This document shows positions 9,549 through 38,800 of a stretch of 40,433 bases of DNA, piece after piece. Made by a program: the position numbers and the translations under genes. Location: positions 1-40,433 of the forward strand of contig CATNCF010000027.1 of the NCBI GenBank assembly GCA_950097145.1, written 5' to 3'. Every line of letters starts with the position of its first letter. Position 1 is the first letter of the stretch. This DNA is from an uncultured Lachnospiraceae bacterium (GTDB lineage: Bacteria > Bacillota > Clostridia > Lachnospirales > Lachnospiraceae). The notes under the pieces were generated by a model. It searched no databases. It saw only the letters and a list, made by a program, of their open reading frames with translations, and had not been told where the DNA came from.

Positions 9549-10829
9549 TCACAGAGTCACCACAAAAGAAGTACCGCCTCCCGGCGTGTCCGCCACCCAT
9601 ATTTTTCCTTTGTGCATATGAATGATTTCCTGGGCTATGCATAGGCCCAAACCAAAGTGTTTCTTGTCTTTATGAGATTTATCACAGCGGTAAAAACGAT
9701 CAAATACTGCCTGTTTTTCAGAATCAGGAATTCCCATTCCACTGTCGGATACCCGAAGAATAAATTTGTCAGAAGGAACCTCCAGAACAAGGTGGATCCT
9801 GCCGCCGGAAGGCGTATAGCACAAAGCATTGTCCAGCAGAATAGATAGAACCTGTTCTATGCGTTCTTTGTCACAGCAGCAAGGCGGCACCAGCTTGTCC
9901 GGTAGAATAACGTTTAAGGAAATGGATTTTTTTTGTGCCAGAAGTTCAAACTTTTCATACACCGACAACAGAAGAGTATCTAGTTCCACCTGTGTTTTCT
10001 GTATGGTGAAATGAGAATTGTCAGCGCTTGAGAGTGTAAGCATATCATCGATGAGACGTCCCATCCTTGTCCCTTCCTGTTTTATGGTCTCTGAAAAATG
10101 CGCGGTTTCTTCTGGTGAAGCGTACTGCATAGCTGAAAGGGCAGAAAGCATAACAGTAAGAGGGGAGCGCAGTTCATGGGAAGCAGAAGCTATAAATTCA
10201 GTCTGCTTCTCACGGCTTTTTTGGATCGGCTGTATGATGCGCCAGGTAAAGAACCAGAAAAACAGCCCTAAAAGAAAAACCCCCAGAATATCCATACCTG
10301 CAAAGAGCCGCCTTTGGGATACCATAGATTTGTTCAAATCAGTCAGAGGCAGCAGGACGGCAACATTTAATATGCCGCTTTTTTTGGGAATCAGGGCCAC
10401 AGAGGCATAATAGTCCTGTCCGTTCCAGTCCAACGGAAAGTCGGCATGGGTGGACAAAACAGAATTGTTTGGCATGGATTCCTCCAAAATGCCATACTTT
10501 TCCCGGGCCTGTTTTCTCGCCAAATTAAAAATATCCTCCTCTAAAGTCAAAGGAGACAGATTCTCAAATATTAATTTAGAGCCTTTGTCCCGGATATCCA
10601 TCTCAAATCGGGTATCTGCACGGAATTGCACCAGCCACTCCCGTGACAGGATAGACTGGCTGCCTAAGTGAGAGAATAATTGATTAGCGTTGACTTGAAA
10701 GTCAGAAAAATGGCTTTTTTTGGATTCTGATTCAGAGAAAGAGAGACAGATTAGGGACATAAAGATTAAAATAGCACTGCTGGCAAATGTACAGAGAAAT
10801 GTAAGCCAAATGTGTAGTTTTTCAAACAT
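9549..10829 (-). CDS. sensor histidine kinase
   Basis: A 426-residue membrane kinase. One transmembrane helix lies near residues 10-32 and a second near 168-192. Between them is an extracytoplasmic sensor of about 135 residues with no recognised fold. The HisKA dimerisation helix has SASHELRSPL with phospho-acceptor His218. The ATPase domain has N-box LLDNALCY, G1 DSGMGIP, F-box FDRFYRCD and G2 GLGLCIAQEI, all intact. No HAMP domain is evident. Start ATG 10829 follows GGAGG and sits 1 base after the end of the response regulator gene, so the pair is co-transcribed and surely cognate. Confidence 0.93.
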   Translation of the reverse strand: MFEKLHIWLTFLCTFASSAILIFMSLICLSFSESESKKSHFSDFQVNANQLFSHLGSQSILSREWLVQFRADTRFEMDIRDKGSKLIFENLSPLTLEEDIFNLARKQAREKYGILEESMPNNSVLSTHADFPLDWNGQDYYASVALIPKKSGILNVAVLLPLTDLNKSMVSQRRLFAGMDILGVFLLGLFFWFFTWRIIQPIQKSREKQTEFIASASHELRSPLTVMLSALSAMQYASPEETAHFSETIKQEGTRMGRLIDDMLTLSSADNSHFTIQKTQVELDTLLLSVYEKFELLAQKKSISLNVILPDKLVPPCCCDKERIEQVLSILLDNALCYTPSGGRIHLVLEVPSDKFILRVSDSGMGIPDSEKQAVFDRFYRCDKSHKDKKHFGLGLCIAQEIIHMHKGKIWVADTPGGGTSFVVTL

Positions 10830-10830
10830 A

Positions 10831-11502
10831 TCAGACCTCCAGTTGATAACCAATGCCCCGGATTGTTTTTAATTGTATGGAGCTTTGGACGCTTTTGAGG
10901 CGCCTGCGCAGAAAATAAATATAGTTGTCCAGATTGCCGTCCTCCACTTCAGCGTCAGGTCCCCAGACTTTAGCAAGAAGAGAGGATCTGGGGATAGTCT
11001 GCCCTGGATTGTGAAGGAAAAACTCCAAGAGATTCCCTTCTCGGGCAGATAGAGAGCAGGAACGATCCTGGCAATGGAGCTTTTTCTGCTCTCTGTTATA
11101 AGAAATGTCTCCCACTATCAGGGGCTTGCTGCCCTCCCATTTCTGGGGGCGCCTTAAGATGCAGCGGATTCTGGCGAGAAGTTCTTCAAAATCAAAGGGT
11201 TTCACCAGATAATCATCAGCTCCGCAGTCAAGTCCTGTGATTTTGTCATTTAGTGCGCCCAGTGCGGTGACAAAGATAATGGGGGTTGAAATATTTTTTT
11301 CCCGTGTGATTTTTAAAATTGAAATTCCATCCAGCACAGGAAGCATCCGGTCCAGCAGTATCAGATCATGAGACTGCTGTTCGATATAGTGCAGTCCTTC
11401 TTCCCCGTCATGGCACACATCTGTCTCAAACTGCTGCTGTTCTAATTGAAAGCGGAGTGTTTCTGCAAGGGATTTGTCGTCTTCAATGATCAGTATTCGC
11501 AT
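10831..11502 (-). CDS. OmpR-family response regulator
   Basis: A 223-residue DNA-binding response regulator. The receiver domain has acidic pocket Glu7-Asp8-Asp9, phospho-acceptor Asp51 in LLDRMLP, the conserved Thr in VTA and Lys in VKPF. The C-terminal winged helix ends in TIRGIGYQLEV, typical of OmpR/PhoB regulators. Start ATG 11502 follows TTGAGGAGGG. It is the first gene of a kinase operon and diverges from the solute-binding protein operon. The symmetric 11-bp direct repeats at 11720-11770 are the kind of site this family binds, so it probably controls both itself and the divergent operon. Confidence 0.94.
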   Translation of the reverse strand: MRILIIEDDKSLAETLRFQLEQQQFETDVCHDGEEGLHYIEQQSHDLILLDRMLPVLDGISILKITREKNISTPIIFVTALGALNDKITGLDCGADDYLVKPFDFEELLARIRCILRRPQKWEGSKPLIVGDISYNREQKKLHCQDRSCSLSAREGNLLEFFLHNPGQTIPRSSLLAKVWGPDAEVEDGNLDNYIYFLRRRLKSVQSSIQLKTIRGIGYQLEV

Positions 11503-11538
11503 GTTGTCCCTCCTCAAGAATGAAAAAGCGGAAAGAAG

Positions 11539-11702
11539 CATAAGGGCTCCTCCCAGCGAAGCTGGGTCCCTCCTCCAAATAGTTAAATACGTGAAAAAGC
11601 ATAAGGAATCCTCCCAGCGAAGCTGGGTCCCTCCTCCAAATAGTTAAATACGTGAAAAAGCATAAGGAATCCTCCCAGCGAAGCTGGGTCCCTCCTTATG
11701 CT
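11539..11702. repeat. three tandem 61-bp hairpin repeats in the regulator leader
   Basis: Units begin at 11539, 11600 and 11661, period 61 bases; the first copy differs slightly and the last is cut short. Each holds a perfect stem CCCAGC/GCTGGG with a 3-base loop, beside CCTCC tracts. Read on the minus strand, in the direction of the regulator gene, each stem is flanked by GGAGGG and AGGAT, like ribosome sites, and ends CCTTATGC. The two promoter-proximal units are followed by TTTTT. The promoter-proximal unit also carries the outer arm GCATAAGG/CCTTATGC, giving a 43-base hairpin at the predicted 5' end of the mRNA. The array could be an attenuator or stabiliser of the leader. Confidence 0.85.
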
Positions 11703-11704
11703 AA

Positions 11705-11785
11705 AGTATATCACAGTTATCTCTAAATTATCTCTAAAAAATTATTTTACAATTAGAGAAAGGTTAGAGATTTCTGTGATATTCT
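11705..11785. promoter_or_regulatory. symmetric operator with two divergent promoters
   Basis: TCTCTAA occurs at 11720-11726 and 11731-11737, and its reverse complement TTAGAGA at 11753-11759 and 11764-11770. Copies in each pair are 11 bases apart and the whole is exactly symmetric about 11745. TATCACAG (11709-11716) and CTGTGATA (11774-11781) extend the symmetry. A minus-strand -10 (TATACT, 11710-11705) and a plus-strand -10 (TATTCT, 11780-11785) each lie 9 bases outside the outer box. Neither has a -35 at the right place; the direct repeats occupy that position. This is the architecture of promoters activated by OmpR/PhoB-type regulators. Confidence 0.8.
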
Positions 11786-11826
11786 GTTTATAGGTTCCGA
11801 AACACAGAGCATGAAGGAGGTAACAT

Positions 11827-14127
11827 ATGAAACATAAAGCATTAAAACGGACTGCAGGATTTCTATTGTCATTGTTCTTGGTCTGCGGAAGTTTTGCCGG
11901 GTGCAGCGGCAAAGACCAGGCAGGGACTGGAACTGCAGACGGAACTGCAGAAAAAAACAACAAAGAAACCGCTATGGGAAGGTTCCTGGAAGAGGAGATA
12001 GATACGGGTATTGCGTTTGGCAATATTTATGATATGAAAAAACTGGAAGACGGGACTCTGCGGATTATCGGTTCTAATGGGGATGATGGAAAAGACGGGG
12101 TTTGGGATTCCAAAGACCAGGGGGTAAGCTGGGAGAAAACTTATGATTTTCCGGCAGAACTTGGAGATGGTGAGAAAGGATATATTGATCGTGCAGCCTT
12201 ATCGCCGGATGGCAAGGCAGTCTGCGTCTTTAATGAGTTTAAAGGGGACGGCGTAATTCAGCCGGTCTTGTATCTTCTGGATGCCAAAGGGACGGGGAGC
12301 CGCATTCCCTTTGAATTACCAGGCGCTTCCGAAAATTCTGCGGGAAACCTGATTATGTGGCTGAGTTTTGCAGGCAGCGGCCAAGTGCTGGCGGAAAATG
12401 CGTCTGACACAATTTATCAGATCAATATAGAAGACGGAAGCGTGAAACAGACCTATGAATTTGACGCTTCTTCAGACATTCATCTGAGTTATGCGGCAGG
12501 AGAAAAGCTGCTTGTTTTCAACAGCTCGGAGGCTCTTGTATATGATACAGGGACAGGGGAACAGATTCCGTCAGAAGAGACATTCCAGAAAGGAGCGGCA
12601 GAGGCTGGGCTGTTCCAGGCTGTGGACACCATGGATGCGGGGGAAAGCGTATTCTGCCTTTCCAGCGGCGGAGTTTATCACTATAAGTTTGGCGGAAGCG
12701 TGATGGAACAATTGGTTGATGGAAAGATGAATTCCCTGGGTGCTCCGGCTTTTTATCCCATAGCCCTCGCCATGCTGGATGAGCAGAATTTTCTGGTAGC
12801 GGCGAACGACACGAATTCTGACTCTCCCACAGGGATTGCATTACTAAAGTATACGTATTCGCCAGATACCCCCGCTATGCCGGAGAAAGAGTTAAAGGTA
12901 TATTCCCTGTATGACAACCGGGAAATGCGGCAGTCAATTACACGGTTCCAGAAGGAACACACAGATATCTATGTAAATTATCAGGCGGCTCTCACTGAGG
13001 AAAACGGCGTAAATATCTCCGACGCATTAAAAACCCTCACCACTGAGATTATGGCAGGAAAAGGGCCGGATCTGTTAATTTTAGATGGGATGCCTGTGAA
13101 AGCATATATGGAAAAGGGTATTCTGAAAGATATATCTTCTGTGGTAGGAAAAGAGGGCAATTATTTTGAAAAGATTTTGAACGCTTATCAGGATGAACAG
13201 GGACAGTTATTTGCAGCCCCGGCAAGGTTTATGATACCTATGGTTCAGGCTGGCGGCGCATGGTATCAGCCAGGAGAAGATTTTGATACTTTTACCGGGC
13301 GCAAAGATGCTCTTGTAAACATGGACCCAAAGACGGTGATAGAAAAATTCTGGTATACCTGTGGCGCGGCATGGCAGAAAGACGATGGCACTTTAGATCA
13401 GGTGAAGATGACGGAATTTCTTACCAAACTGAAGAATGCTTACGGGGAATACGATGAAGCAAGCCTGGAAAATATGGTTACAGCAATGGCGTTTAGCGAG
13501 GAAAAAGCCGGCAAAGCACAGGTAAATCTGCTCAAAAACAGTTCTCTTAGTGTTGGGCAGTTTGACCTGGCTTTTGGAAGGCTGAATACAAATGTTGGAT
13601 TATTGGACAGCTTGGATTATGGAATGATGAGTGCAGTAAATAAGAAGCTGAAAGATGGAGATTACGGTCTGATGCCGGGTCAGGCAGATCACGTTTTCGT
13701 TCCGGCTATGATCTTGGGGATCAGCAGTAAGAGCAGCGAAACAGAGACGGCAGAACAGTTCCTGCAGTATTTGTTTTCCACCGAAGCACAGAAAATTTCC
13801 CAGTCCGGCGGGCTTCCGGTAGAACAGGAGGCGTTCAAGAGCGTGATCGACGGACATCAGTATAAAGGAAAAGACAGTCTGGTCTGTGTGGGAAGCGACG
13901 GAACGAATGTAGATGAGACGCTGGATTATCCTATGGTTCCTACACCGAAAAAAGAAATTAAAAAAATTACAGAGCTTGCGGAATCTCTTGCCACTCCGGC
14001 ATTGCGGGATGATGTGATTATGGAGGCGGTGTCAGAGCAGGGGGAAAAGGTGTTAAAGGGTGAAATCAGCCCGGAACAAGCCGCTGACGCCATTATGCAG
14101 AAAGTCAATATTTATCTGGCAGAGTAG
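11827..14127 (+). CDS. lipoprotein: beta-propeller-like domain fused to ABC solute-binding protein
   Basis: A 766-residue exported lipoprotein. The signal peptide ends in a lipobox-like FAGC with Cys26 as lipid site, followed by a low-complexity linker. Residues about 60-345 are rich in repeated strand patterns such as GVWDSKDQGVSWEKTYDF (a BNR/sialidase-like hairpin) and LYLLDAKGTG, suggesting a propeller. From about 354 (ELKVYSLYDNREMRQSI) to the end it reads as a family 1 extracellular solute-binding protein with TEIMAGKGPDLLILDG and FAAPARF. Usual binding proteins are 400-450 residues, so the front domain is an addition. It is the first gene of the six-gene operon; AAGGAGG precedes ATG 11827. 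The ligand is unknown, possibly a sugar given its permeases. Confidence 0.85.
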   Translation: MKHKALKRTAGFLLSLFLVCGSFAGCSGKDQAGTGTADGTAEKNNKETAMGRFLEEEIDTGIAFGNIYDMKKLEDGTLRIIGSNGDDGKDGVWDSKDQGVSWEKTYDFPAELGDGEKGYIDRAALSPDGKAVCVFNEFKGDGVIQPVLYLLDAKGTGSRIPFELPGASENSAGNLIMWLSFAGSGQVLAENASDTIYQINIEDGSVKQTYEFDASSDIHLSYAAGEKLLVFNSSEALVYDTGTGEQIPSEETFQKGAAEAGLFQAVDTMDAGESVFCLSSGGVYHYKFGGSVMEQLVDGKMNSLGAPAFYPIALAMLDEQNFLVAANDTNSDSPTGIALLKYTYSPDTPAMPEKELKVYSLYDNREMRQSITRFQKEHTDIYVNYQAALTEENGVNISDALKTLTTEIMAGKGPDLLILDGMPVKAYMEKGILKDISSVVGKEGNYFEKILNAYQDEQGQLFAAPARFMIPMVQAGGAWYQPGEDFDTFTGRKDALVNMDPKTVIEKFWYTCGAAWQKDDGTLDQVKMTEFLTKLKNAYGEYDEASLENMVTAMAFSEEKAGKAQVNLLKNSSLSVGQFDLAFGRLNTNVGLLDSLDYGMMSAVNKKLKDGDYGLMPGQADHVFVPAMILGISSKSSETETAEQFLQYLFSTEAQKISQSGGLPVEQEAFKSVIDGHQYKGKDSLVCVGSDGTNVDETLDYPMVPTPKKEIKKITELAESLATPALRDDVIMEAVSEQGEKVLKGEISPEQAADAIMQKVNIYLAE

Positions 14128-14162
14128 GATGTTTGAGCAAGATAGAAAGATGTGGTGGGATC

Positions 14163-15044
14163 ATGAAATTTCCGTATCAAATACGCCGTATCCGGCGTAC
14201 AAAAACTGCTGGAAAACATAAGAACTTTCGTGGATTGTTGTGGATCCTGCCAAGCTTTTTGGGAGTGCTGGTATTTTATCTCCTGCCCTATGCAGACGTT
14301 GTCCGCCGTTCTTTTTTGGGAGCGGTGGACGGCAGTTTTGCGGGAATTGACAATTACCGGGCAGTATTGGAGAATATAGCATTTCTGCTGGCGGTAAAAA
14401 ATACGCTGCGGTTTACGGTATTGTGTATTCCAGCGCTGATACTTGCCGCCCTTCTATGTGCCGTTCTTTTGTACCGCAGCAAATATGGCGGAATCGTGAA
14501 AAGCGCTTTTCTTATGCCAATGGCATTGCCGGCGGTCTCGGTGGCGTTAATGTGGAGGCTGCTTTTTCATTCTCAGGGCATTGTAAACGGGTGGCTTGCT
14601 AATTTTCGCATTACGGGAAGCGATTGGATGAACAGCAAAAGCGCATTTTGGATTCTGGTGGGCAGTTATATCTGGAAAAACCTGGGTTATGATATTGTGC
14701 TGTGGATGGCAGGGCTTTCTGGGATTTCAGAAAATATTTACGAAGCGGCAAGGGTGGATGGAGCCGGGGAATGGCAGTGCTTTTGGAAAATTACCCTGCC
14801 AAACCTGAAAACTTCTTTTTATACCATTACCGTACTGTCTTTTCTCAATTCTTTTAAAGTGTTCCGGGAAGCTTATCTGGTTGCGGGAGATTATCCCCAT
14901 GAGAGTATCTATATGATGCAGCATTTGTTTAACAATTGGTTCCGGAATTTTTCTTTTGATAAGATGGCAGCCGCGGCAGTACTGGAAAGCCTGGTGCTTC
15001 TGGGATTGATTCTGTTATTTCAGAAAACTTTGGATAAGGAATGA
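14163..15044 (+). CDS. sugar-type ABC transporter permease (MalF/UgpA-like)
   Basis: An inner-membrane permease of 293 residues with six predicted helices. The cytoplasmic EAA loop YEAARVDGAGEWQCFWKI, which docks the ATPase, is present near residue 198. The basic N-terminal tail is followed by a first helix GLLWILPSFLGVLVFYLLPY, typical of carbohydrate permeases. Start ATG 14163 is preceded by GGTGGGA; an earlier TTG at 14133 in the same frame is possible and would be closer to the previous stop. It pairs with the permease that follows. The ATPase must be supplied from outside this locus. Confidence 0.9.
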   Translation: MKFPYQIRRIRRTKTAGKHKNFRGLLWILPSFLGVLVFYLLPYADVVRRSFLGAVDGSFAGIDNYRAVLENIAFLLAVKNTLRFTVLCIPALILAALLCAVLLYRSKYGGIVKSAFLMPMALPAVSVALMWRLLFHSQGIVNGWLANFRITGSDWMNSKSAFWILVGSYIWKNLGYDIVLWMAGLSGISENIYEAARVDGAGEWQCFWKITLPNLKTSFYTITVLSFLNSFKVFREAYLVAGDYPHESIYMMQHLFNNWFRNFSFDKMAAAAVLESLVLLGLILLFQKTLDKE

Positions 15045-15078
15045 ATGAGAAAGGCAGAAGAAAGGGACGGTGATAAAG

Positions 15079-15939
15079 ATGATAGATAGGGCAAAAATTT
15101 CAAAAATGGTTCTCTGGGTATTGTTGGGGCTGCTTGCTGTCCTGGCCCTTTATCCGGTGTGCTTTCTTATTATGGGTTCTCTGATGGGGAATGATGAGCT
15201 GGCAGGTTACCTGGGAGCGGTAATTTCAGGGGGCAAGGGCTATGCGGCTGTTCCGCTGCTGCCAGGATTTCCAACCTTAAAACATTATGTGGAAATTTTA
15301 CTGGATTCGCCAGAATTCTTTGTAATGTTCTGGAATTCCATAAAAATTACCTTTGGGGTTCTGGCAGGACAGCTTGTGGTGGGAACCATGGCGGCATGGG
15401 GATTTGCAAAATACGAATTTCCCTGGAAAAAAGGATTTTTTCTGATTTATATCATATTGATGCTGCTGCCTTTTCAGGTATTGATGTTATCTGATTATCT
15501 CATATTAGATAAGCTGAAATTGACAGACAGCCTGTGGGGAATTGTACTTCCGGGAGCATTCTCAACCTTTCCGGTTTTTATCATGTACCGCTTTTTTACA
15601 GAGATTCCAGACAGCTTGATTGAATCAGCGAAATTGGATGGCGCTAAAGGGTGCCAGTTGTTTGTATATATTGCCCTGCCCATAGGTTCTTCCGGGGTGA
15701 TTGCCTCTATGGTGCTGAGTTTTTTGGAATATTGGAGCTTGATAGAACAGCCCATGACATTTTTGAAGGACAAAAGCTTATATCCCCTGTCGATCTTCCT
15801 GCCGGATATTACAAGTACCGGAAAGTCCGGCATGGCATTTGCCACCTCAGTAATTACGTTCATCCCGGCATTATTGATATTTCTTGGAGGCCAGGATTAT
15901 CTGGAACAAGGGATTATGGCAGGCGCAGTAAAAGAATAG
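15079..15939 (+). CDS. sugar-type ABC transporter permease (MalG/UgpE-like)
   Basis: Second permease of the pair, 286 residues, six helices. The EAA loop reads IESAKLDGAKGCQLFVYIALP. Helix one is ALYPVCFLIMGSL, in line with the MalG side of the CUT1 family. A periplasmic insertion (ELAGYLGAVISGGKGYAAVP) between helices one and two is slightly long. The start is either GTG 15070 or ATG 15079; AAAGGGA lies at 15061-15067. The 34-base gap after the first permease, without a terminator, supports one operon. Confidence 0.9.
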   Translation: MIDRAKISKMVLWVLLGLLAVLALYPVCFLIMGSLMGNDELAGYLGAVISGGKGYAAVPLLPGFPTLKHYVEILLDSPEFFVMFWNSIKITFGVLAGQLVVGTMAAWGFAKYEFPWKKGFFLIYIILMLLPFQVLMLSDYLILDKLKLTDSLWGIVLPGAFSTFPVFIMYRFFTEIPDSLIESAKLDGAKGCQLFVYIALPIGSSGVIASMVLSFLEYWSLIEQPMTFLKDKSLYPLSIFLPDITSTGKSGMAFATSVITFIPALLIFLGGQDYLEQGIMAGAVKE

Positions 15940-15967
15940 AGAGAGATGGCTGGAAAGGGACAGAGCA

Positions 15968-17449
15968 ATGGACAGAAAAAAGATATTTGGAATATTCGGC
16001 GGTTTTCTGGCGGTGATGCTTGTATTTACCTTATTGTCAAGGGCAGTAAGCGGGGCGGCCATGGCGAAGGTGGAAACAGTTAAGATTTCTACCGGAACCA
16101 TTGAGCATAAGGTAATTGGAAGCGGCAGGACAGAAGCTGGAAAAGAAATTGCAGTTTATACAGAAGCAGGGCAGCGGGTGAAAGAAATCTGTGTTCAAGA
16201 GGGACAGTCTGTAGAGGAAGGAGAGGTACTGTTCCTGGTGGATTTACAAGAGCTGGAAGAACAGATTATGGCAGCCAGGCAGGAGCTGGAGAAGCTGAAA
16301 CTGCAGGGACAGGATACCCAGAGTGCCCAGAGTGTGGAACGGCAGAATCAGCAAAATGCCAGAAACCGGGCGGCAGAGGATTACAATACTGCTGTGGCGC
16401 AGGGAAATGAAGCTGTGGCAGAGGCAAAAGCAGCCTGGGACCGGGCGGAACAGGAATTGCAGCAATTCTTACAGACCAGCCTGGAAGCTGACAACTCCGG
16501 GAAGAATACCCTGATACCGCGGACAGACCTTAGCGCCCCAGAAGAAAAATATGAGAATTCAGAAACAGGAGAGGAAACGCAAAAGAAAGACAGTGAAGAA
16601 GACAGCGGGCAGGCACAGCCGGAAAATGATGCGGCAAATTGGGAAGCCAGAAAAAAAGAACTGGAAGAAGCAGCGTCACAGGCCAGAGCCGCTTACCAGG
16701 CAGCCCTTTCTTCCCGGACAGATAATGTAAAAAATGCGGCGAGGGCTTTAGAGGACGCGTCGCTTCCGAGAGCTTCTGACAGTACCGGGAAACAAAATGA
16801 GATTACCAGACAGCAGCAGGAACTGGCATTGAATAAACTTTTGAAACTGAAAGAGGCAGAGGGAACAGTGACAGCGCCAGTGGGGGGAATGGTGACAAAC
16901 ATTGCGATTACTACAGGAGATTTTACTACGGAGGGAACAGCCATACGTCTTGCCGATACTTCTAAGGGCTGCCGGATTACGGCTTCTATCAGCAAGGCAG
17001 ATGAGAAATATGTCAGCAAAGGAAGCCCGGTAATTATCACTGCTTCTGGAAGCAAGGATAAAATCAGTGATTACACGGTGTCTAACATTACAGAACATGA
17101 GGAAGATAAAGATTTACTGAATGTGTCCATTGATCTGCCAGAAGGGGTTCTGGAGGCAGGAATCTCTGTGGAGGTTGAGATCCAGCAGAAATCAAAAAAT
17201 TATAATACAGTTCTTCCGCTGGAAGCGCTTCATGAGGAACAGACGGGATATTATGTTTTGATCCTGCAGGAAGAGAAGGGCGTCCTGGGCTCAGAACTGA
17301 CGGCAAAACGTTTTGAGGTTGAGGTACTGGATAAGAATGATACGAAGGTCGCATTGGAGGAAGGAATGCTTACGGGAGATCAGGAAGTAATCAGTAGTTC
17401 CAGCCGCTTTATTGATGATGGAAGCAAGGTGAGAAGGAAGGCAGAATGA
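15968..17449 (+). CDS. HlyD/MacA-like periplasmic adaptor protein
   Basis: A 493-residue membrane-fusion protein. One N-terminal anchor (residues 7-27), then a lipoyl half-motif (VKEICVQEGQSVEEGEVLF), a long coiled-coil hairpin (about residues 85-285, rich in Glu, Gln and Ala) and the returning lipoyl half (GTVTAPVGGMVTNIAITTGDF), then a beta-barrel segment. The tip of the coiled coil holds an acidic insert (about 180-220). Such adaptors work with MacB or RND pumps; in Gram-positive bacteria with MacB-type ABC exporters. Here it follows importer-type permeases. Its stop overlaps the next ATG by 4 bases, which points to tight coupling with the membrane protein that follows. Confidence 0.87.
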   Translation: MDRKKIFGIFGGFLAVMLVFTLLSRAVSGAAMAKVETVKISTGTIEHKVIGSGRTEAGKEIAVYTEAGQRVKEICVQEGQSVEEGEVLFLVDLQELEEQIMAARQELEKLKLQGQDTQSAQSVERQNQQNARNRAAEDYNTAVAQGNEAVAEAKAAWDRAEQELQQFLQTSLEADNSGKNTLIPRTDLSAPEEKYENSETGEETQKKDSEEDSGQAQPENDAANWEARKKELEEAASQARAAYQAALSSRTDNVKNAARALEDASLPRASDSTGKQNEITRQQQELALNKLLKLKEAEGTVTAPVGGMVTNIAITTGDFTTEGTAIRLADTSKGCRITASISKADEKYVSKGSPVIITASGSKDKISDYTVSNITEHEEDKDLLNVSIDLPEGVLEAGISVEVEIQQKSKNYNTVLPLEALHEEQTGYYVLILQEEKGVLGSELTAKRFEVEVLDKNDTKVALEEGMLTGDQEVISSSSRFIDDGSKVRRKAE

Positions 17450-18594
17450 AAATGAAAAAGTATGCAGCCAGCGTGTTTTTAGCAGGACTGGCGGGGATTG
17501 TAATCTTATTTTTTTATTTATCCGCAGCGTGCTGGGGAAATCTTGATTGGAGCAGAGAGAACATCATGTTCTGTATGGATGAATCTGTCAGTGAAAATCA
17601 GGCGGTACTTATGGTGGAACAGCATTTGGAAAGATTAGAGGAGAATTTTCATGACAGGGAAGAACAAGAAGAGATACCAGGATTCTGCATTTGGGGGCAG
17701 AAAGAGCAGGTTTTATTGAAAAATGAGGAGTTATCCCGCAGTATTCAAAGAGATGTGATTATTTTTTGCGGCGCTCCAGAACTCTTGTTTGAAGAATGCA
17801 GGGTTCCTGGATGGGAAGACAGGCGGGGATGCCTGGTAGACGAAGAGACGGCATGGGAATTGTTCGGAAGTAAAGAGGCAGAGGGGCAGGAAATCACTTA
17901 TGAGGGAAATACCTATATTATAAGGAAGGTAATTTCTGGAAAAAGTGGAATTGCCGCATTTCCAGCAGCGGAACGAGAGCAAGATGCAGGAAAGGAAGTT
18001 CCGGCAGAAGAAGAACGGTTCCCGCTCATGCAGCCAGAGGAAAAGAACTTAAACAGAGTTACTATAAAAAAGCCAGAGAGCCAGTCTGTCAGTGAGCTGC
18101 AGACCGGCTGGTCTGGCTGGTCTGGTATGAGAATACAGATTCTGGATCTGGAGCTTCTGCGGGGATTGGGAGGTTTTTGTGTTCTTTTGTTCCCTGTGAC
18201 ACTCTGTTCTATTTTTCTGTTTTGCTTGTGCAGCCAGTATCGGAGAGAAAAAGGATGGAAAGCTAGGGCAGGGATGCTTGGGTTTGTTTTGGGATTTATT
18301 TTGACAGCGCTGTTTTTATCTGGAACATGGGTGCAGATTCCAGACGATTACATTCCGGCAAAATGGTCTGATTTTGAGTTCTGGTCCAGGTTGCTGGAGC
18401 AAAAAATAAATGCAGCGAAATTGTTGTCTAAGATTCCGAAGTCTACGGTTGATTTTGGCTGGCTGACTGATTTTTGGAAATGTACAGTTTCTGGAATCCT
18501 GGCAGAGATCCTGGCGGTTCTCTTGCTTTTCTCCTGGAAGTGTTCTAAAATAGAATTTATGTTTAGAAAATCTGACAGGAGGATATGGGATTGA
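17446..18594 (+). CDS. membrane protein with MacB-like topology, no ATPase partner
   Basis: A 382-residue protein with a helix near residues 8-27, an external domain of about 215 residues, then three helices near 245-268, 278-302 and 352-372. This helix-ectodomain-three-helix plan is that of MacB/FtsX permeases. The ectodomain has FCIWGQKEQVLLKNEEL and CLVDEETAWELFGSKEA, which resemble MacB periplasmic-core strands. The sequence is divergent and no family is certain. It overlaps the adaptor gene by 4 bases and the next gene by 10, so all three are translationally coupled. It may form an assembly with the adaptor; its function is not known. Confidence 0.7.
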   Translation: MKMKKYAASVFLAGLAGIVILFFYLSAACWGNLDWSRENIMFCMDESVSENQAVLMVEQHLERLEENFHDREEQEEIPGFCIWGQKEQVLLKNEELSRSIQRDVIIFCGAPELLFEECRVPGWEDRRGCLVDEETAWELFGSKEAEGQEITYEGNTYIIRKVISGKSGIAAFPAAEREQDAGKEVPAEEERFPLMQPEEKNLNRVTIKKPESQSVSELQTGWSGWSGMRIQILDLELLRGLGGFCVLLFPVTLCSIFLFCLCSQYRREKGWKARAGMLGFVLGFILTALFLSGTWVQIPDDYIPAKWSDFEFWSRLLEQKINAAKLLSKIPKSTVDFGWLTDFWKCTVSGILAEILAVLLLFSWKCSKIEFMFRKSDRRIWD

Positions 18595-18848
18595 AGATAA
18601 GAAGTTCTTGGATTATTGTTTTTGTCATGCTGACAGGGCTAATCATTGGAACAGTCATTGGCAGCTACTGCAGTGGGATCGGAGCATTGAGCTGGCTGAA
18701 TTATGGGCAGGTATTTGGGCTTACTACGCCCTTTGTATTAGATCTTGGGGTATTTGTGCTGACGCTGGGACTAACGATTAAAATTAATATCGCAAGTATT
18801 ATCGGAATTGTTATTGCATTTTTATGTTATAAGCTTCTGGTGAGATAA
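18585..18848 (+). CDS. small membrane protein, DUF4321-like
   Basis: An 87-residue protein with two transmembrane helices (about residues 9-28 and 53-83) around a GxxxGSYCSGIGALSWLNYG loop and LDLGVFVLTLGLTIKINIAS, the pattern of DUF4321 proteins of Clostridia. The function is unknown. AGGAGG at 18577-18582 is only 2 bases before ATG 18585 but 8 before TTG 18591, so the true start may be the TTG. It is the last gene of the six-gene operon, overlapping the previous gene by 10 bases. Confidence 0.75.
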   Translation: MGLKIRSSWIIVFVMLTGLIIGTVIGSYCSGIGALSWLNYGQVFGLTTPFVLDLGVFVLTLGLTIKINIASIIGIVIAFLCYKLLVR

Positions 18849-18880
18849 AATTAATGGAACAGAAAAAATGGTTTAAAAAA

Positions 18881-18909
18881 TTACAGACATGTTAAATTAT
18901 TGATATAGA
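18881..18909 (+). promoter_or_regulatory. candidate promoter of the arabinofuranosidase gene
   Basis: TTACAG at 18881-18886, 17 bases, TATAGA at 18904-18909. It would give a leader of about 90 bases before ATG 19005. The ribosome site AAAGGAGGATTGG lies at normal spacing. No terminator is visible between this operon and the preceding one, so read-through is possible. Confidence 0.5.
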
Positions 18910-19004
18910 AGTCCTCCAATTCTCTTTGTAAAATAAAGATACTAAGGTTTCATAAGGAAAGGATATTATGAAAACTGGTAAAAATTTTAAAGGAGGATTG
19001 GTTT

Positions 19005-22000
19005 ATGAAGAGAGAAAAGATGTTCCAGCGGGTGCTGGCATCCATTCTGTCACTGGCACTTGTTCTTACCAGTATTTCCCTTCAGGGATTTATGACCGTA
19101 CAGGCAGCAGAGACAGAAGAAGGATTGCTTGTTCATTATGACTTTGTGTCACAAAATGACCAGGCAGCGCAGATTCCCGACGCTTCCGGGCACAATAATA
19201 TTGCGGAGATTGAAGCAGTAAGCGGAAGTGCAAGAGGAAAGTATACAATTGTTGACGCCAATATTTATGGCAGGGCAGTAAAGGCTCTGGACTTAAAAGG
19301 CGGCGAGGATGGCGCATTTTTGATTCTTCCAGAAGGTATTCTGAGTGAATGTGATGCAGTTACTGTAAGTACCTGGGTAAAGCTCAGCACAGATAACGGC
19401 TACCAGAGAATCTGGGACTTTGGTTCAGGCACTTCACAGAATTTCTATCTGTGTTCTGACAATTGGAATGCTGGGTTTGAAGGATATTCCGCTATCATCA
19501 ATAAGGGAGAAGGAGAAGTTGGTATTGGAAAAGGCAAGAATGAAGATGAAAGCCTTAAGAATATCGATAAGAACCGTTGGGTATTGACCACAGTTGTTAT
19601 GAACGGATCTACTATGTCCTTATATGAGAACGGTGAGCTGGTTGGAACCAAGGATACGGGAATCACTGTAAAGGATCTGGGCGCAACCGACCAGAACTAT
19701 ATTGCATACAGTCAGTATGGAGATACTCCTACTACAGGGCAGTATGCAGACTTTAAGATTTATAACAAAGCATTAACAGCAGATCAGATTAAAGCAATGT
19801 ACAATGTGACAGATGAAGGCATTGTAACAGCAGATAACGGAGATCTGGATTTAGGTGATCTGTCTCAGGTAACAGAAGACATTACCCTTCCTACAAAGGG
19901 AGTAAACGGTTCTGATCTTACATGGACAAGTCAGAACAGTGCAGTTGTAATTCAGCAGCCGGATAAAGACGGTAACGTGATTGCAAAGGTAACCAGGCCT
20001 GCAAAAGGCGCAGAGAATGTAACTGGAACCATTACAGCGAGAATCTCTTATGGCACGGCAGCTCCTGTAGACAAAGTTTTTCCTGTAACAGTAATGTCAG
20101 AATATACGGATAAGCAGATTGTAGATCATGATAAAGAAGCTGCTGCCAAGACAGTAGGCGATCTTTCTACAATTATTGACAAGACCCTTGTACTGCCTGC
20201 TAAGGGAGAATGGGGTTCAAAAATTACCTGGAGCTGGACAGGAAAGACCGGCGCAAAAGGCAGCATTGAGATTCCAGCAGAAGCCGATGAAAAAGGCAAT
20301 GTAACTGCGAAAGTAACCAGACCGCCTATTGGTTCTGAAAGTGAGACAGGGACATTGAAAGCTGCCATTACTTCTGGCAGTGAGTCTGTAGAATTACCAT
20401 TTGAAGTAACTCTGCTTGCATACAGCGATTCTATCCAGATCACAAAAGTTGAACCAGTGAATGTAACTACTTTAGTAGGGGTCAGCCCCACAATGCCTAA
20501 GTTTGTAAAGGTAACATATTCTAATAACAGCACAAACAAGGTACAGGTGAGATGGCCGGATGATATTGAAGCAGAGAAATATGCCGCGGAAGGTGAATTT
20601 ACTGTAGAAGGTACTCTGGTAGGAGAATATGAAAAAGCAACAGCAACCGTTAAGGTTGTAACTGGCGATGATGTTGAGAAAGTAGTAGTATCAGACAGCT
20701 TCGATCTGAATGATATTACATTGGATAAGATTGGAACAGACGGTTCTATTCTGACACAGAACCGTGACCGTGACATTGAATATCTGAAACTTCTTGACAA
20801 TAAGCGTATGCTTTACAATTTCTATAAAACATTTGGAGAAACAGATACAATCAAAGATGTGAAGCCTCTGGGCGGCTGGGATGAGCCGGGCGGACTGCTC
20901 CGCGGACATTCCACTGGACATTATATGTCAGCATTGGCTCTTGCTTATGCGTCCACCAAAGATGCAGAAATCAAGGCAAAACTGGATGAAATGGTAACAG
21001 AGCTTCATACATTGCAGCAGAAATCCAAGGGCGATCCGGCTGCATTTAAGACCAAAGGCGTATTGGTAAAAGACTGGAGTACAGATCCAAATGAATGGGG
21101 CGAAGGCTTTATCAGCGCATATTCCCCAGACCAGTTTGCACTGCTGGAGCAGTATGTTCCTTACGGAAGCCCGGATTCTGGTATTTGGGCGCCTTACTAC
21201 ACCTTACATAAGCTTTTGGCAGGATTGATTGACGCTTATACTTATACTGGCAATGAAGAAGCATTGGTGGCTGCAAAGGCCCTTGGCAAATGGGCTTACA
21301 ACCGTCTGAGAGTACTGCCGCAAGAACAGCTTACCAAGATGTGGGCAATGTATATTGCAGGCGAGCTGGGCGGAATCAACGAGTCTATGGCGCAGCTTTA
21401 TATCTATGCCAAGGCAGACGGCGATGCAGATGCAGAGGTATTCTTAAAGGGTGCAAAATTATTTGACAATACTATTTTCTTTGACAATCTGGCTAAAAAT
21501 GTGGACGATATCCGCAACCGCCATGCAAACCAGCATATTCCTCAGGTTATCGGTGCGCTGAAGATTTATGAGGCGACAGTAGCAGAGGGAAAGCCAGATA
21601 TGCATTACTTTAACGTAGCGCAGAACTTCTGGCAGATGACAGTTTCCAGATATGCATATTCCATCGGCGGCGTGGGCGTAGGAGAAGCATTCCCGAAAGA
21701 TCCATATGCACTTGCAGCCAACATTATGAGTGACAGAAACTGTGAGACTTGTGCAGCATACAATATGATGAAAATGACAAAGATGCTGAACAACTACGAT
21801 CCGGATAATGCGGAATACATGGATTATTATGAGAGAACTCTGTACAATCAGATTCTTGCATCCCAGACACCAAATACAACCAGTAAGATGCATAACGGAA
21901 CCACCTACATGCTTCCAATTGGACCTGGCGCAAAAAGAGATTTCGGTGATGACTACAATGCATTTACCTGCTGCCATGGTACAGGTATGGAGAATCATGT

Positions 22001-24440
22001 AAAATATCAGGAAGCAGCTTATGCTAAGACAGAAAACGACTTATATGTAGGCCTGTATCTTCCTTCTACCCTTACTTGGAAAGAAAAAGGCGTGAAGGTT
22101 GTTCAGGAGACAACATTCCCCTCTGAGACTACAAAATTAACAGTAGTGTCAGCATCTGACGGACAGGAAGCCCCAGGACAGAAGGCAGATCCCGAAGGAA
22201 CATTTAACATGAAACTGCGTGTTCCTTATTGGGCAACCAAAGGATTCACAGTAACAGTAAACGGCGAAGAAAAAATGACGAGTGCAGAAATCAGCACTTA
22301 TGTGACAGTAGAAAATGTTAAGATTGGCGATGTGATTGAAGTTAATATGCCATGGAGCATCCATCTTGACAAGACGCCTGATACTCTGGAAGATTCCACA
22401 GTAGCTAGTATCATGTACGGCCCATTTGTTATGGCGTCAAGGAACAGCAGCACAGAGTGGCAGAACCTGACATTGCCAGAGAATTTAGAGAACTACATGA
22501 AAGTTTCCTTCAACGAAAAGAACGGCTTCCCGATTCTTACCGGAGCTGGATATGATTTTGTTCCTATGTTCGCACCAGAACTTGCATCTGAAGGATATCA
22601 TGCATATTCCAAAGTTGCCGTAATCCCGGATGATGGAAGCGAATGGTATCAATTAAAAGTTAATAATAAGACACCGTTAAATGGAGGCATCAGCACAACT
22701 GCAAAGGGCGTTATGATGAGAGAAGGTTCTGACCTTGTGGTTACCTTAAAGCCCAATGAAGGTTATGCAGTGCGTAAGCTGATTGTCAATGGAACAGATG
22801 TAAAAGACCAGGTTAAGGATAATGTATACACACTGAAAAATGTAAGCGGTGATGTAGAATTGACAGTAACTTTCCGTCCGCCAACAGATAATCCAATGAA
22901 TCTGGAGTATTCTGCAACCATCGCTTCTGACCGTCCCAATGATCAGGATAACTGGTACGGCGAAAAAGAAGACGCTCAGAGAGACTGGGAGCCAAAAGCA
23001 TCTGACGGACAGGGCAAGAAAGGCTGGGTAAATTGGTATACAGCGCCTGGAGCAGAGTGTAAACTCTGGTACACCTGGGATGATCCGGTTACCATGAATG
23101 CTTTTGATGTATTCTGGCGTGCTAATAATGCATGGATGAAGGTTCCAGGCAGCCTTGAGGTTTCTTACCTGGATGCTGATGGAAACTGGCAGAAAGCAAA
23201 TCTGAAGACAAGTTATGAAGATTGTGTAAAGATGGATCAGTATAACAGAATCCTCTTTGATGAGATTACAACCACAGCAGTACGGCTTGATATGACCATC
23301 AACACAAGCGAAGAAAATGAAGCTGCCGGATGTACCGGCGTATACCGCTGGAAGGTTATGAAACTGGAGCCAGTTGCAGTTACAGGTGTAACATTAGACA
23401 AAGAAACCCTGGCGCTGAAAGTAGGCGAAAGCGATACTCTGACAGCAACAGTAGCTCCAGATGATGCAGCCGATAAGAGCGTAACCTGGACAAGTGACGC
23501 TGAAGAAGTAGCAAGTGTAGAAAATGGAAAAGTAACTGCTAAGAAAGCAGGAACAGCCAAGATAACAGTTACCAGCGTGGAAGATAATACCAAGAAAGCA
23601 GAATGTACAGTAACCGTAACAGAAAGTACCGGAACAGATAACGTAGCGGTTACAAATGTGACATTGAATAAAATTGCCCTGGCTCTGACAGAAGGCGGAA
23701 GTGAAACTTTGACAGCAACAGTAGCTCCGGCAAATGCAACCAACAAGAATGTGACTTGGGTAAGCGATAAACCAGAGGTAGCAAGTGTAGAAAATGGAAA
23801 AGTAACTGCTAAGAAGGCAGGAACAGCAACCATCACTGTTACCAGCGCAGCAGACAGTACCAAGAAGGCATCCTGTGTTGTAACTGTAAAGGCTAAGACT
23901 GTCACAGTTCCAGAGGTAAGAGTAAGCAGCGTAACACTGAATGTGAAGAATCTTACTTTGGGTGTAAAGGAAACTTTCACACTGAAAGCAACAGTGAAAC
24001 CTTCCAATGTGAAGAATAAGAAAGTAACTTGGAAGTCTGATAAGACGAAGATTGTGGCAGTAAAGAACGGCAAACTTACAGCTAAGAAAGCTGGTAAGGC
24101 AAAGATTACCGCGACCAGCCAGGCTGATAAGACCAAGAAAAAGACCATTACCGTAACTGTGAAGAAAGCTCCGGACAAGAAGGCTAAGGTTACTCTGAAT
24201 AAGAAGAAAGTAACCATGAAGACCAAAGGAAAGAATAAGACCTTCCAGATTAAGGCTAAGATTTCCTCCAAGTACGGAAGCAATTCCTTCAAATACACCA
24301 TCGACAAGAAAGGCAAGAAAGCTGTAAAAGTTGATAAGAACGGAAAGGTAACTGCTAAGAAGAAAGGAAAAGCAGTCATTACTGTGAAACCTTATAACGG
24401 CAAAGGAAAAGCAGCAAAGCTTACGATTACTGTAAAATAA
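19005..24440 (+). CDS. secreted modular GH127-type beta-L-arabinofuranosidase with Ig-like domains
   Basis: An 1811-residue exported enzyme expected to release L-arabinofuranose from plant or glycoprotein glycans. Modules in order: signal peptide ending VQAAE (~35); LamG-like lectin fold (40-270); two atrophied Ig domains (about 275-370 and 378-470); a Big_4-like domain (475-555); GH127/DUF1680 catalytic domain (about 560-1205); a small repeat domain (1210-1290); an F5/8-like carbohydrate-binding jelly roll (1300-1450); and four Big_2 Ig domains (from 1457, 1546, 1639 and 1726), the last two very lysine-rich. In characterised GH127, zinc is held by a Glu-x-Cys and a Cys-Cys pair, one Cys being the nucleophile. 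Here they are Glu914, Cys916 (NCETC) and Cys989-Cys990 (TCCHG). No LPXTG anchor or SLH domain; the basic tail may bind the wall electrostatically. Confidence 0.92.
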   Translation: MKREKMFQRVLASILSLALVLTSISLQGFMTVQAAETEEGLLVHYDFVSQNDQAAQIPDASGHNNIAEIEAVSGSARGKYTIVDANIYGRAVKALDLKGGEDGAFLILPEGILSECDAVTVSTWVKLSTDNGYQRIWDFGSGTSQNFYLCSDNWNAGFEGYSAIINKGEGEVGIGKGKNEDESLKNIDKNRWVLTTVVMNGSTMSLYENGELVGTKDTGITVKDLGATDQNYIAYSQYGDTPTTGQYADFKIYNKALTADQIKAMYNVTDEGIVTADNGDLDLGDLSQVTEDITLPTKGVNGSDLTWTSQNSAVVIQQPDKDGNVIAKVTRPAKGAENVTGTITARISYGTAAPVDKVFPVTVMSEYTDKQIVDHDKEAAAKTVGDLSTIIDKTLVLPAKGEWGSKITWSWTGKTGAKGSIEIPAEADEKGNVTAKVTRPPIGSESETGTLKAAITSGSESVELPFEVTLLAYSDSIQITKVEPVNVTTLVGVSPTMPKFVKVTYSNNSTNKVQVRWPDDIEAEKYAAEGEFTVEGTLVGEYEKATATVKVVTGDDVEKVVVSDSFDLNDITLDKIGTDGSILTQNRDRDIEYLKLLDNKRMLYNFYKTFGETDTIKDVKPLGGWDEPGGLLRGHSTGHYMSALALAYASTKDAEIKAKLDEMVTELHTLQQKSKGDPAAFKTKGVLVKDWSTDPNEWGEGFISAYSPDQFALLEQYVPYGSPDSGIWAPYYTLHKLLAGLIDAYTYTGNEEALVAAKALGKWAYNRLRVLPQEQLTKMWAMYIAGELGGINESMAQLYIYAKADGDADAEVFLKGAKLFDNTIFFDNLAKNVDDIRNRHANQHIPQVIGALKIYEATVAEGKPDMHYFNVAQNFWQMTVSRYAYSIGGVGVGEAFPKDPYALAANIMSDRNCETCAAYNMMKMTKMLNNYDPDNAEYMDYYERTLYNQILASQTPNTTSKMHNGTTYMLPIGPGAKRDFGDDYNAFTCCHGTGMENHVKYQEAAYAKTENDLYVGLYLPSTLTWKEKGVKVVQETTFPSETTKLTVVSASDGQEAPGQKADPEGTFNMKLRVPYWATKGFTVTVNGEEKMTSAEISTYVTVENVKIGDVIEVNMPWSIHLDKTPDTLEDSTVASIMYGPFVMASRNSSTEWQNLTLPENLENYMKVSFNEKNGFPILTGAGYDFVPMFAPELASEGYHAYSKVAVIPDDGSEWYQLKVNNKTPLNGGISTTAKGVMMREGSDLVVTLKPNEGYAVRKLIVNGTDVKDQVKDNVYTLKNVSGDVELTVTFRPPTDNPMNLEYSATIASDRPNDQDNWYGEKEDAQRDWEPKASDGQGKKGWVNWYTAPGAECKLWYTWDDPVTMNAFDVFWRANNAWMKVPGSLEVSYLDADGNWQKANLKTSYEDCVKMDQYNRILFDEITTTAVRLDMTINTSEENEAAGCTGVYRWKVMKLEPVAVTGVTLDKETLALKVGESDTLTATVAPDDAADKSVTWTSDAEEVASVENGKVTAKKAGTAKITVTSVEDNTKKAECTVTVTESTGTDNVAVTNVTLNKIALALTEGGSETLTATVAPANATNKNVTWVSDKPEVASVENGKVTAKKAGTATITVTSAADSTKKASCVVTVKAKTVTVPEVRVSSVTLNVKNLTLGVKETFTLKATVKPSNVKNKKVTWKSDKTKIVAVKNGKLTAKKAGKAKITATSQADKTKKKTITVTVKKAPDKKAKVTLNKKKVTMKTKGKNKTFQIKAKISSKYGSNSFKYTIDKKGKKAVKVDKNGKVTAKKKGKAVITVKPYNGKGKAAKLTITVK

Positions 24441-38120: not shown

Positions 38121-38800
38121 GACCGGATCACCTCGTCTCTTGTAATTTTTCCATCTTCTATGGTAAGAATCCGGTTCGCCTGCAGGGCAATATTTTCATC
38201 ATGTGTGATGACGATCAAAGTCTGTTTGTATTTTTCATTGGAATATTTCAACAGTTCCACGATTTCCTGGCTGTTTTTAGAGTCAAGATTTCCCGTAGGT
38301 TCGTCAGCAAGGACGACCGCGGGGGCATTCATAAGAGCACGGCCAATGGAAACACGCTGCTGCTGGCCCCCGGAAAGCTGATTGGGCAAATGGCCTTCCC
38401 TGCCGTTCAGTGAAAGAAGGTTTAAAAGTTCTGACAAGCGTTCTTCATTTACAGGGCGTCCGTCCATAAGTACAGGAAGCGTCATATTTTCTGTTACATT
38501 TAAAACCGGAATCAAGTTATAGAATTGGTAAATCAGTCCCACCTGCCGTCTGCGGAAAATGGCAAGCTGGCTTTCATTTTGTGCATAGACGTCGCTGCCC
38601 TCCATATAGACCTTGCCGGAGGTTGGAATGTCCACGCCGCCCAGAATATGCAGCAGGGTAGATTTACCGGAACCAGAGGGGCCGATGATGGCCAGAAATT
38701 CGCCCTTGTTTACGGAAAATGACACATCGTCCAGAGCTTTTACCTGATTCTCACCAGTACCATAGATTTTTGTCACATGTTCTGCTTTTAATATTTCCAT
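38117..38800 (-). CDS. ABC transporter ATP-binding protein (MacB/LolD-like)
   Basis: A 227-residue ATPase. Walker [10 protein letters not shown] (about 39-47), Q-loop region [10 protein letters not shown], signature LSGGQQQR and Walker [13 protein letters not shown] with a following TLIVITHD switch histidine are all intact, so it should power the adjacent FtsX-type permease. This is the first gene of the two-gene operon. AAAGGAG lies upstream of ATG 38800. Three TGAC boxes upstream suggest control by a response regulator that is not in this window. Confidence 0.95.

Follow-up and report, generated by a model that had tools for sequence, protein, structure and literature searches.

A HlyD/MacA-type adaptor gene linked to CUT1-type importer permeases in Lachnospiraceae: a candidate uptake module

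Introduction

Membrane fusion (adaptor) proteins of the HlyD/MacA type are textbook parts of exporters, and CUT1-type importer permeases normally have no ATPase gene of their own beside them. What, then, does such an adaptor do in an operon with a pair of these permeases? The question is raised by positions 9549 to 18848 of a 40,433-nucleotide stretch of contig CATNCF010000027.1 (hereafter, the window) from an uncultured Lachnospiraceae bacterium, whose genome assembly is 3.05 Mb and 82.8% complete and whose named relatives are mostly Lachnospiraceae. Here, a two-component system lies divergent from genes encoding a predicted lipoprotein with a solute-binding domain, two CUT1-type permeases (P1 and P2), an adaptor and a MacB-like membrane protein. 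We found that the adaptor and the permeases belong together well beyond the window, in many Clostridia of the gut. We suggest, with a probability of about 0.5, that the lipoprotein, permease pair, adaptor and MacB-like protein form an importer that uses an MsmX-type ATPase encoded elsewhere in the genome.

Results

The adaptor gene is linked to importer permeases

We assembled 99 loci, comprising 18 from named genomes that were found through the MacB-like protein, 80 regions and the window. The 80 regions, from 250 genomes of the same family, surround the highest-ranking adaptor matches and do not cover every matching place. Adaptor genes were counted above 100 bits, which gave 100 genes in the 99 loci; L013 and L113 are one stretch, and there are therefore 98 distinct loci and 99 distinct adaptor genes. 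When linkage was defined as both permeases lying within four co-directional genes of the adaptor, a CUT1 permease pair accompanied 77 of the 99 distinct adaptor genes, and an ATPase gene adjoined none of these 77. Among the 22 adaptors without a CUT1 pair, a LolD-type ATPase directly adjoined 16, as in MacAB pumps, and an ATPase lay slightly farther away in two; three of the others are at contig ends (L012, L060 and L115) and one is a fragment (L091). Thus, one adaptor family has two partner classes, as indicated by the frequencies of an adjoining ATPase (0/77 versus 16/22). ATP-binding cassette (ABC) proteins encoded upstream of the module in L011 (740 amino acids) and L064 were considered as partners and rejected, because they are not adjacent to the adaptor and differ in size from the MacB/LolD ATPases.

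A MacB-like gene was also present in 71 of the 77 CUT1-linked loci, and the order lipoprotein, P1, P2, adaptor, MacB-like protein was found in 55. The same genes in the same order are found repeatedly throughout the Lachnospiraceae-type family and also in some other families, which supports the proposal of the initial annotation that these proteins form one coupled assembly. Two culturable commensals, Petralouisia muris (L004) and Schaedlerella arabinosiphila (L017), are among the carriers of the module. Further, an alignment search with the MacB-like protein matched 14 of 391 genomes of the class, the window's own among them. Seven regions from this search comprised two A-type modules (L163 and L164), three B-type modules (L165, L167 and L170) and two ordinary MacAB loci (L166 and L168), A and B denoting the subfamily of the MacB-like protein.

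The census was also taken from the permease side. A search of the 250 family genomes with P1 (E 1e-45) found 77 places in 65 genomes, every one of which was mapped to a locus. An adaptor open reading frame (ORF) of at least 400 amino acids was nearby in 65 of the 77 places, and four places (G100, G170 and two in G147) are cut off by a contig end ahead of where the adaptor would lie. Of the remainder, one is split between contigs (G152), one has no adaptor (G245) and six have a short adaptor-like ORF of 218 to 240 amino acids (that of G232 scoring only 18 bits). Random placement of the adaptor beside permeases, which the initial annotation had named as the outcome that would speak against its proposal, therefore did not hold from either side, and chance neighbourhood was rejected on the adaptor-side counts. 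In a permease tree, 82 adaptor-linked permeases separated from 12 other CUT1 permeases by a single change with a Shimodaira-Hasegawa-like approximate likelihood ratio test (SH-aLRT) support of 100, in a sample with only those 12 outside permeases, some of them long-branched, and with four labels set by hand (L110, L117 and L159, which are merely near a module, as outside, and the split L152 as inside; L113 was omitted).

The short adaptor-like ORFs bear on what the adaptor does. They would fit a holder better than a tube. On that reading, the adaptor and MacB-like protein would have no conduit function and would serve as a scaffold, either keeping the lipoprotein extended into the wall or attaching it to a partner surface protein. 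Nevertheless, the full-length adaptor predominates in the permease places, and a related Gram-positive adaptor, Spr0693, is reported to form a hexameric tube within a modelled assembly about 154 Å high (PMC5768738). We therefore regard a pure scaffold as improbable.

Two variations on the module were observed in these loci. In L173, L178, L180 and L186 (and in L154 and L155), the permease pair is followed by an adaptor-like ORF of about 230 to 255 amino acids, and no MacB-like gene was found; such loci may represent a reduced version of the module or an ancestral one. In L059, L073, L086, L094 and L164, each module has two or three binding-protein genes, suggesting diversification of the ligand.

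Genes of the window locus

All genes of the initial annotation were present at the positions it had given. They are as follows.

9549 to 10853, minus strand: sensor histidine kinase (HisKA 2.5e-16, HATPase_c 1.2e-24); the ORF opens with TTG
10831 to 11541, minus strand: OmpR-family response regulator (Response_reg 2.5e-28, Trans_reg_C 1.7e-17)
11827 to 14127, plus strand: predicted lipoprotein with SBP_bac_1 (Pfam, residues 366-656) within a sugar-type solute-binding domain (residues 352-766)
14133 to 15044, plus strand: CUT1-type permease 1 (BPD_transp_1 5.6e-17), EAA loop EAARVDGAGEWQCFWKITLP
15070 to 15939, plus strand: CUT1-type permease 2 (BPD_transp_1 3.4e-12), EAA loop ESAKLDGAKGCQLFVYIALP
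15968 to 17449, plus strand: HlyD/MacA-type membrane fusion (adaptor) protein (TIGR01730 RND_mfp 97.3 bits, cut-off 94.9; HlyD_3 9.3e-7)
17446 to 18594, plus strand: MacB-like membrane protein, a MacB core between membrane helices with the family motif PAKWSDFEFW (no Pfam family over its cut-off; MacB_PCD E 0.27)
18585 to 18848, plus strand: DUF4321 protein (PF14209, 8e-20)

The kinase more likely starts at an ATG eight codons inside the TTG-opened frame, and the likely starts of the response regulator and P1 are at about 11502 and at the ATG at 14163, respectively. In the kinase sequence, two hydrophobic stretches near the N terminus are separated by about 150 residues. The response regulator is 86-91% identical to its counterparts in L002-L006. 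In the Protein Data Bank (PDB), relatives of P1 were a sugar permease (7cad), SugA, AlgM1 and MalF, and the nearest solved relative of the adaptor was MacA (1.6e-8). The hydrophobic N-terminal stretch of the adaptor is likely a membrane anchor.

The lipoprotein had been described as a propeller joined to a binding protein. Residues from about 50 to 349, preceding the solute-binding domain, are predicted to form an all-beta domain, which fits a propeller, and contain one stretch that we take to be Asp-box-like. This domain gave no Pfam match over the cut-off, to a propeller or otherwise, and the PDB fold search, which covered residues 298-766, did not confirm a propeller.

The last three genes overlap, as had been noted, by 4 nucleotides (adaptor and MacB-like) and 10 nucleotides (MacB-like and DUF4321); the 10-nucleotide overlap is not conserved in L002, L004 and L006. 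As had also been noted, none of the operon genes encodes an ATPase. Terminator-like matches on both strands of 11400-19100 were slightly more frequent than in shuffled sequences (11 versus 7.5, standard deviation 2.6).

The initial annotation counted DUF4321 as the sixth member of the operon. It lies close to the module in 5 of the 99 loci (the window, L002, L004, L006 and L058), all close relatives, and in some of these it is separated from the module by other genes or gaps. We therefore rejected DUF4321 as a component and regard it as a chromosomal neighbour; the module is thus five genes, with a two-component pair in many loci.

The MacB-like protein retains the outer core of MacB

An AlphaFold2 model of the MacB-like protein (mean predicted local distance difference test score, 91.7) matched MacB, the extracellular domain of YknZ and the Streptococcus pneumoniae Spr0694-0695 structure 5xu1. 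The modelled protein is one that retains the MacB extracytoplasmic fold. Pfam FtsX had no match in the window protein or in six relatives scanned, whereas both canonical controls contained MacB_PCD and FtsX. MacB_PCD was over the cut-off in the four B-type relatives and under it in the two A-type relatives. The window protein has four membrane helices, and hydropathy indicated two in 17 of 19 subfamily B proteins. Given the two helices of subfamily B, we prefer to call the protein a MacB core that lacks a recognisable FtsX transporter half rather than, as in the initial annotation, an ATPase-less MacB-like protein.

In L092 (10090-11763), a MacB-like core is fused in one frame to a haloacid-dehalogenase-type hydrolase (Pfam Hydrolase 1.8e-14).

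An MsmX-type ATPase is the probable motor

A strict EAA pattern, the motif that couples permeases to an ATPase, was found in 51 of 73 P1 and 70 of 76 P2 relatives; three of the remaining P1 have EVA or ETA variants. The host genome encodes an MsmX-type ATPase (496 bits versus a curated cut-off of 432), and similarity at E 1e-100 identified one in 51 of 52 genomes with the module. Further, the operons of L013 and L111 are reordered as lipoprotein, adaptor, MacB-like protein, P1, P2, with an MsmX-type ATPase gene directly after P2. These two ATPases score 349 and 348 bits to that of the host, and the L111 protein has MalK OB and TOBE_2 domains (Pfam) and matches MsmX/MalK structures (PDB). In Bacillus subtilis, MsmX is reported to serve many importers (PMC5730181, PMC7658222). 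From these sequences, an MsmX-type motor probably drives the module.

A predicted operator accompanies the module

Two copies of a direct repeat with an 11-base period lie between the regulator and the lipoprotein gene.

11720 to 11737, minus strand: predicted operator 1, TTAGAGA-N4-TTAGAGA, exact match
11753 to 11770, plus strand: predicted operator 2, the same motif, exact match, facing operator 1

Both lie within a 33-nucleotide inverted repeat (11705-11737 and 11753-11785) and are the only matches with up to one mismatch in the window. OmpR-family sites are usually direct repeats at about 11 bases. With up to two mismatches, the motif, which was derived from the same loci in which it was then counted, occurs in 30 of 34 divergent regulator/operon intergenic regions versus 0.2 expected from shuffles; spacings of 8-10 and 12-15 gave 0 to 11. 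At the same stringency, it precedes the regulator and the lipoprotein gene separately in L062, L064, L087 and L089, the lipoprotein gene and P1 in L104, L097 and L076, and the adaptor itself in L164. Ten canonical MacAB loci had two matches altogether.

In G152, the module is split over two contigs (L066 and L152), one with binding protein, P1, a second binding protein and the regulators, and the other with P2, adaptor and MacB-like protein. Each half has the motif, with two mismatches, in the expected upstream intergenic region. Because the site moves with rearranged genes and precedes both halves in G152, it links the permease and adaptor halves. We conclude that the set is very probably one functional unit, to judge from gene order and these shared sites. 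In G152, the P2-adaptor-MacB-like genes sit behind genes for a pyruvate-formate-lyase-like glycyl-radical enzyme and a radical S-adenosylmethionine protein.

These results bear on a reading in which the operon encodes two separate machines: an ordinary importer driven by MsmX, and an exporter of the MacAB kind that receives its LolD-type ATPase in trans. The same genomes also encode true MacAB adaptors of this family and have many ABC ATPases, and the window itself encodes a LolD-type one (38117-38800). Against this, the adaptor remains with the permeases where genes are reordered and in other families, the shared motif links the halves of the split locus, and no ATPase gene lies beside any CUT1-linked adaptor. 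Further, because the MacB-like protein has no FtsX match and only two helices in subfamily B, there would be little for a LolD ATPase to drive. We consider two machines improbable.

A different alternative makes the locus a sensor rather than a transporter, as the initial annotation had also considered: the binding protein, permeases, adaptor and MacB-like protein would detect ligand occupancy and signal to the kinase. Transporters do signal to kinases in BceAB-BceS and Pst-PhoR. An OmpR-type response regulator and a histidine kinase are encoded near 36 of the 52 loci with an A-type MacB-like gene, and 8 of 9 exact operator matches in eight genomes are at the module. No such pair was nearby in the other 16 A-type loci or in 18 of 19 B-type loci, a set that includes some loci truncated at contig ends; the assembly thus seems not to require the pair. 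Moreover, the EAA loops, which couple permeases to an ATPase, are largely kept. We consider pure sensing unlikely.

Between the regulator and the operon, at 11524-11706, are three head-to-tail copies of a 61-nucleotide unit with a CCCAGCGAAGCTGGG palindrome. Partial copies at nine other places in the genome indicate that this unit is a dispersed repeat element.

Neighbouring genes

Directly downstream (19005-24440) is a gene for an 1811-residue GH127 beta-L-arabinofuranosidase with Laminin_G_3 and Ig-like repeats. By similarity, no GH127 gene was found beside the module in near relatives with sequence there, save a weak 38% match in L007. Among 236 candidate neighbouring ORFs, 137 were drawn at random and 16 were dropped by hand, without a strict rule, as duplicates, end fragments or short ORFs. 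The 121 scanned had no common enzyme theme; the commonest family was PPK2, with four members. We therefore rejected GH127, a local feature, as proof of an arabinan ligand. Elsewhere in the window, on the minus strand at 35328-38800, the gene for the LolD-type ATPase is overlapped by that for a 930-residue protein; this pair is probably a separate ABC transporter of the FtsX/MacB superfamily.

Discussion

If these proteins are an importer, it could work as follows. The lipoprotein, predicted to be lipid-anchored, would bind the ligand, and the permease pair with an MsmX-type ATPase from elsewhere in the genome would move it inward. The MacB-like core may be where the adaptor docks, by analogy with MacB and MacA, and the adaptor, standing on the membrane as a ring, would pass, guide or position the ligand or the lipoprotein in the cell-wall space. 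The two-component pair may switch the unit on. Whether the adaptor serves uptake in this way, as a conduit or scaffold, is in our judgement evenly balanced. A more specific proposal is tentative and somewhat short of even odds: Gram-positive ABC importers may have adopted the HlyD/MacA efflux nanotube for uptake across the wall, with the outer core of MacB as a motor-less dock and a shared MsmX-type ATPase as the source of energy.

Several results weigh against the proposed importer. Six of the 77 CUT1-linked adaptor loci (one at a contig edge) and most of the short-adaptor relatives yielded no MacB-like gene, which is thus not indispensable. The strict EAA pattern is missing from 22 of the 73 P1 relatives, mostly of subfamily B. 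All eight genomes examined without the module also have an MsmX-type ATPase, so its presence does not discriminate. The operator motif occurs neither in the module region L163 nor in L010, L017, L069 and L085; further, with up to one mismatch in eight genomes it is rarer than its reversed control (30 versus 60 matches), and the evidence for the operator is therefore positional. Sugar importers often adjoin glycoside hydrolases, and no glycoside-hydrolase family is among the 25 commonest Pfam families of the 121 neighbouring ORFs; a sugar ligand is thus not supported.

Should the proposal be correct, a HlyD/MacA adaptor would belong to a type-I importer in a widespread lineage, given permease relatives in 65 of the 250 family genomes. 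Envelope-spanning adaptors could then take part in uptake in bacteria with a single membrane, a role that Mce proteins have in mycobacteria, and MacB could be reduced to its outer core and yet be kept. The conserved operator predicts kinase-responsive genes and offers a reporter for a ligand search. Among the literature matches listed, no open-licence title describes a HlyD adaptor serving a CUT1 importer; subscription papers were outside the scope of that search.

The module resembles the MsmX-type CUT1 sugar importers of B. subtilis in its SBP_bac_1 lipoprotein, its two BPD_transp_1 permeases with EAA loops, and an operon without an ATPase whose MsmX-type candidate is encoded elsewhere. Unlike those importers, it nearly always includes a HlyD-type adaptor and in most cases a MacB-core protein; its binding protein has an all-beta N-terminal domain, many loci have OmpR-type regulators, and no glycoside-hydrolase family is among its commonest neighbours. 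With Gram-positive MacAB-type pumps (Spr0693-0694-0695, YknWXYZ) it shares the adaptor family and the extracytoplasmic core fold of MacB/YknZ. In contrast to these pumps, it has importer permeases in place of an ATPase beside the adaptor, its MacB-like protein has no FtsX match, and one subfamily has two helices; because the ATPase and FtsX features of such pumps were not found, we do not file the module among them.

BceAB-BceRS also combines a membrane protein of the FtsX/MacB superfamily with a two-component system, as the module does. Unlike BceAB-BceRS, the module has importer permeases and no BceA-type ATPase in the operon, and the region between the N-terminal hydrophobic stretches of its kinase is about 150 residues long. 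Unlike Mce1/Mla, it has CUT1-type permeases and a sugar-type binding domain, and no MCE domain was matched among Pfam hits up to E 0.5 in nine window proteins. As proposed here from its genes, the module would nevertheless resemble Mce1/Mla in joining an ABC importer to an envelope-spanning structure that is not an ATPase: Mce1 is described as an elongated ABC importer with such a structure (PMC9882608), and its ATPase, MceG, is reported to be common to Mce4 (PMC9947336), much as an MsmX-type ATPase may be shared by the module and other importers.

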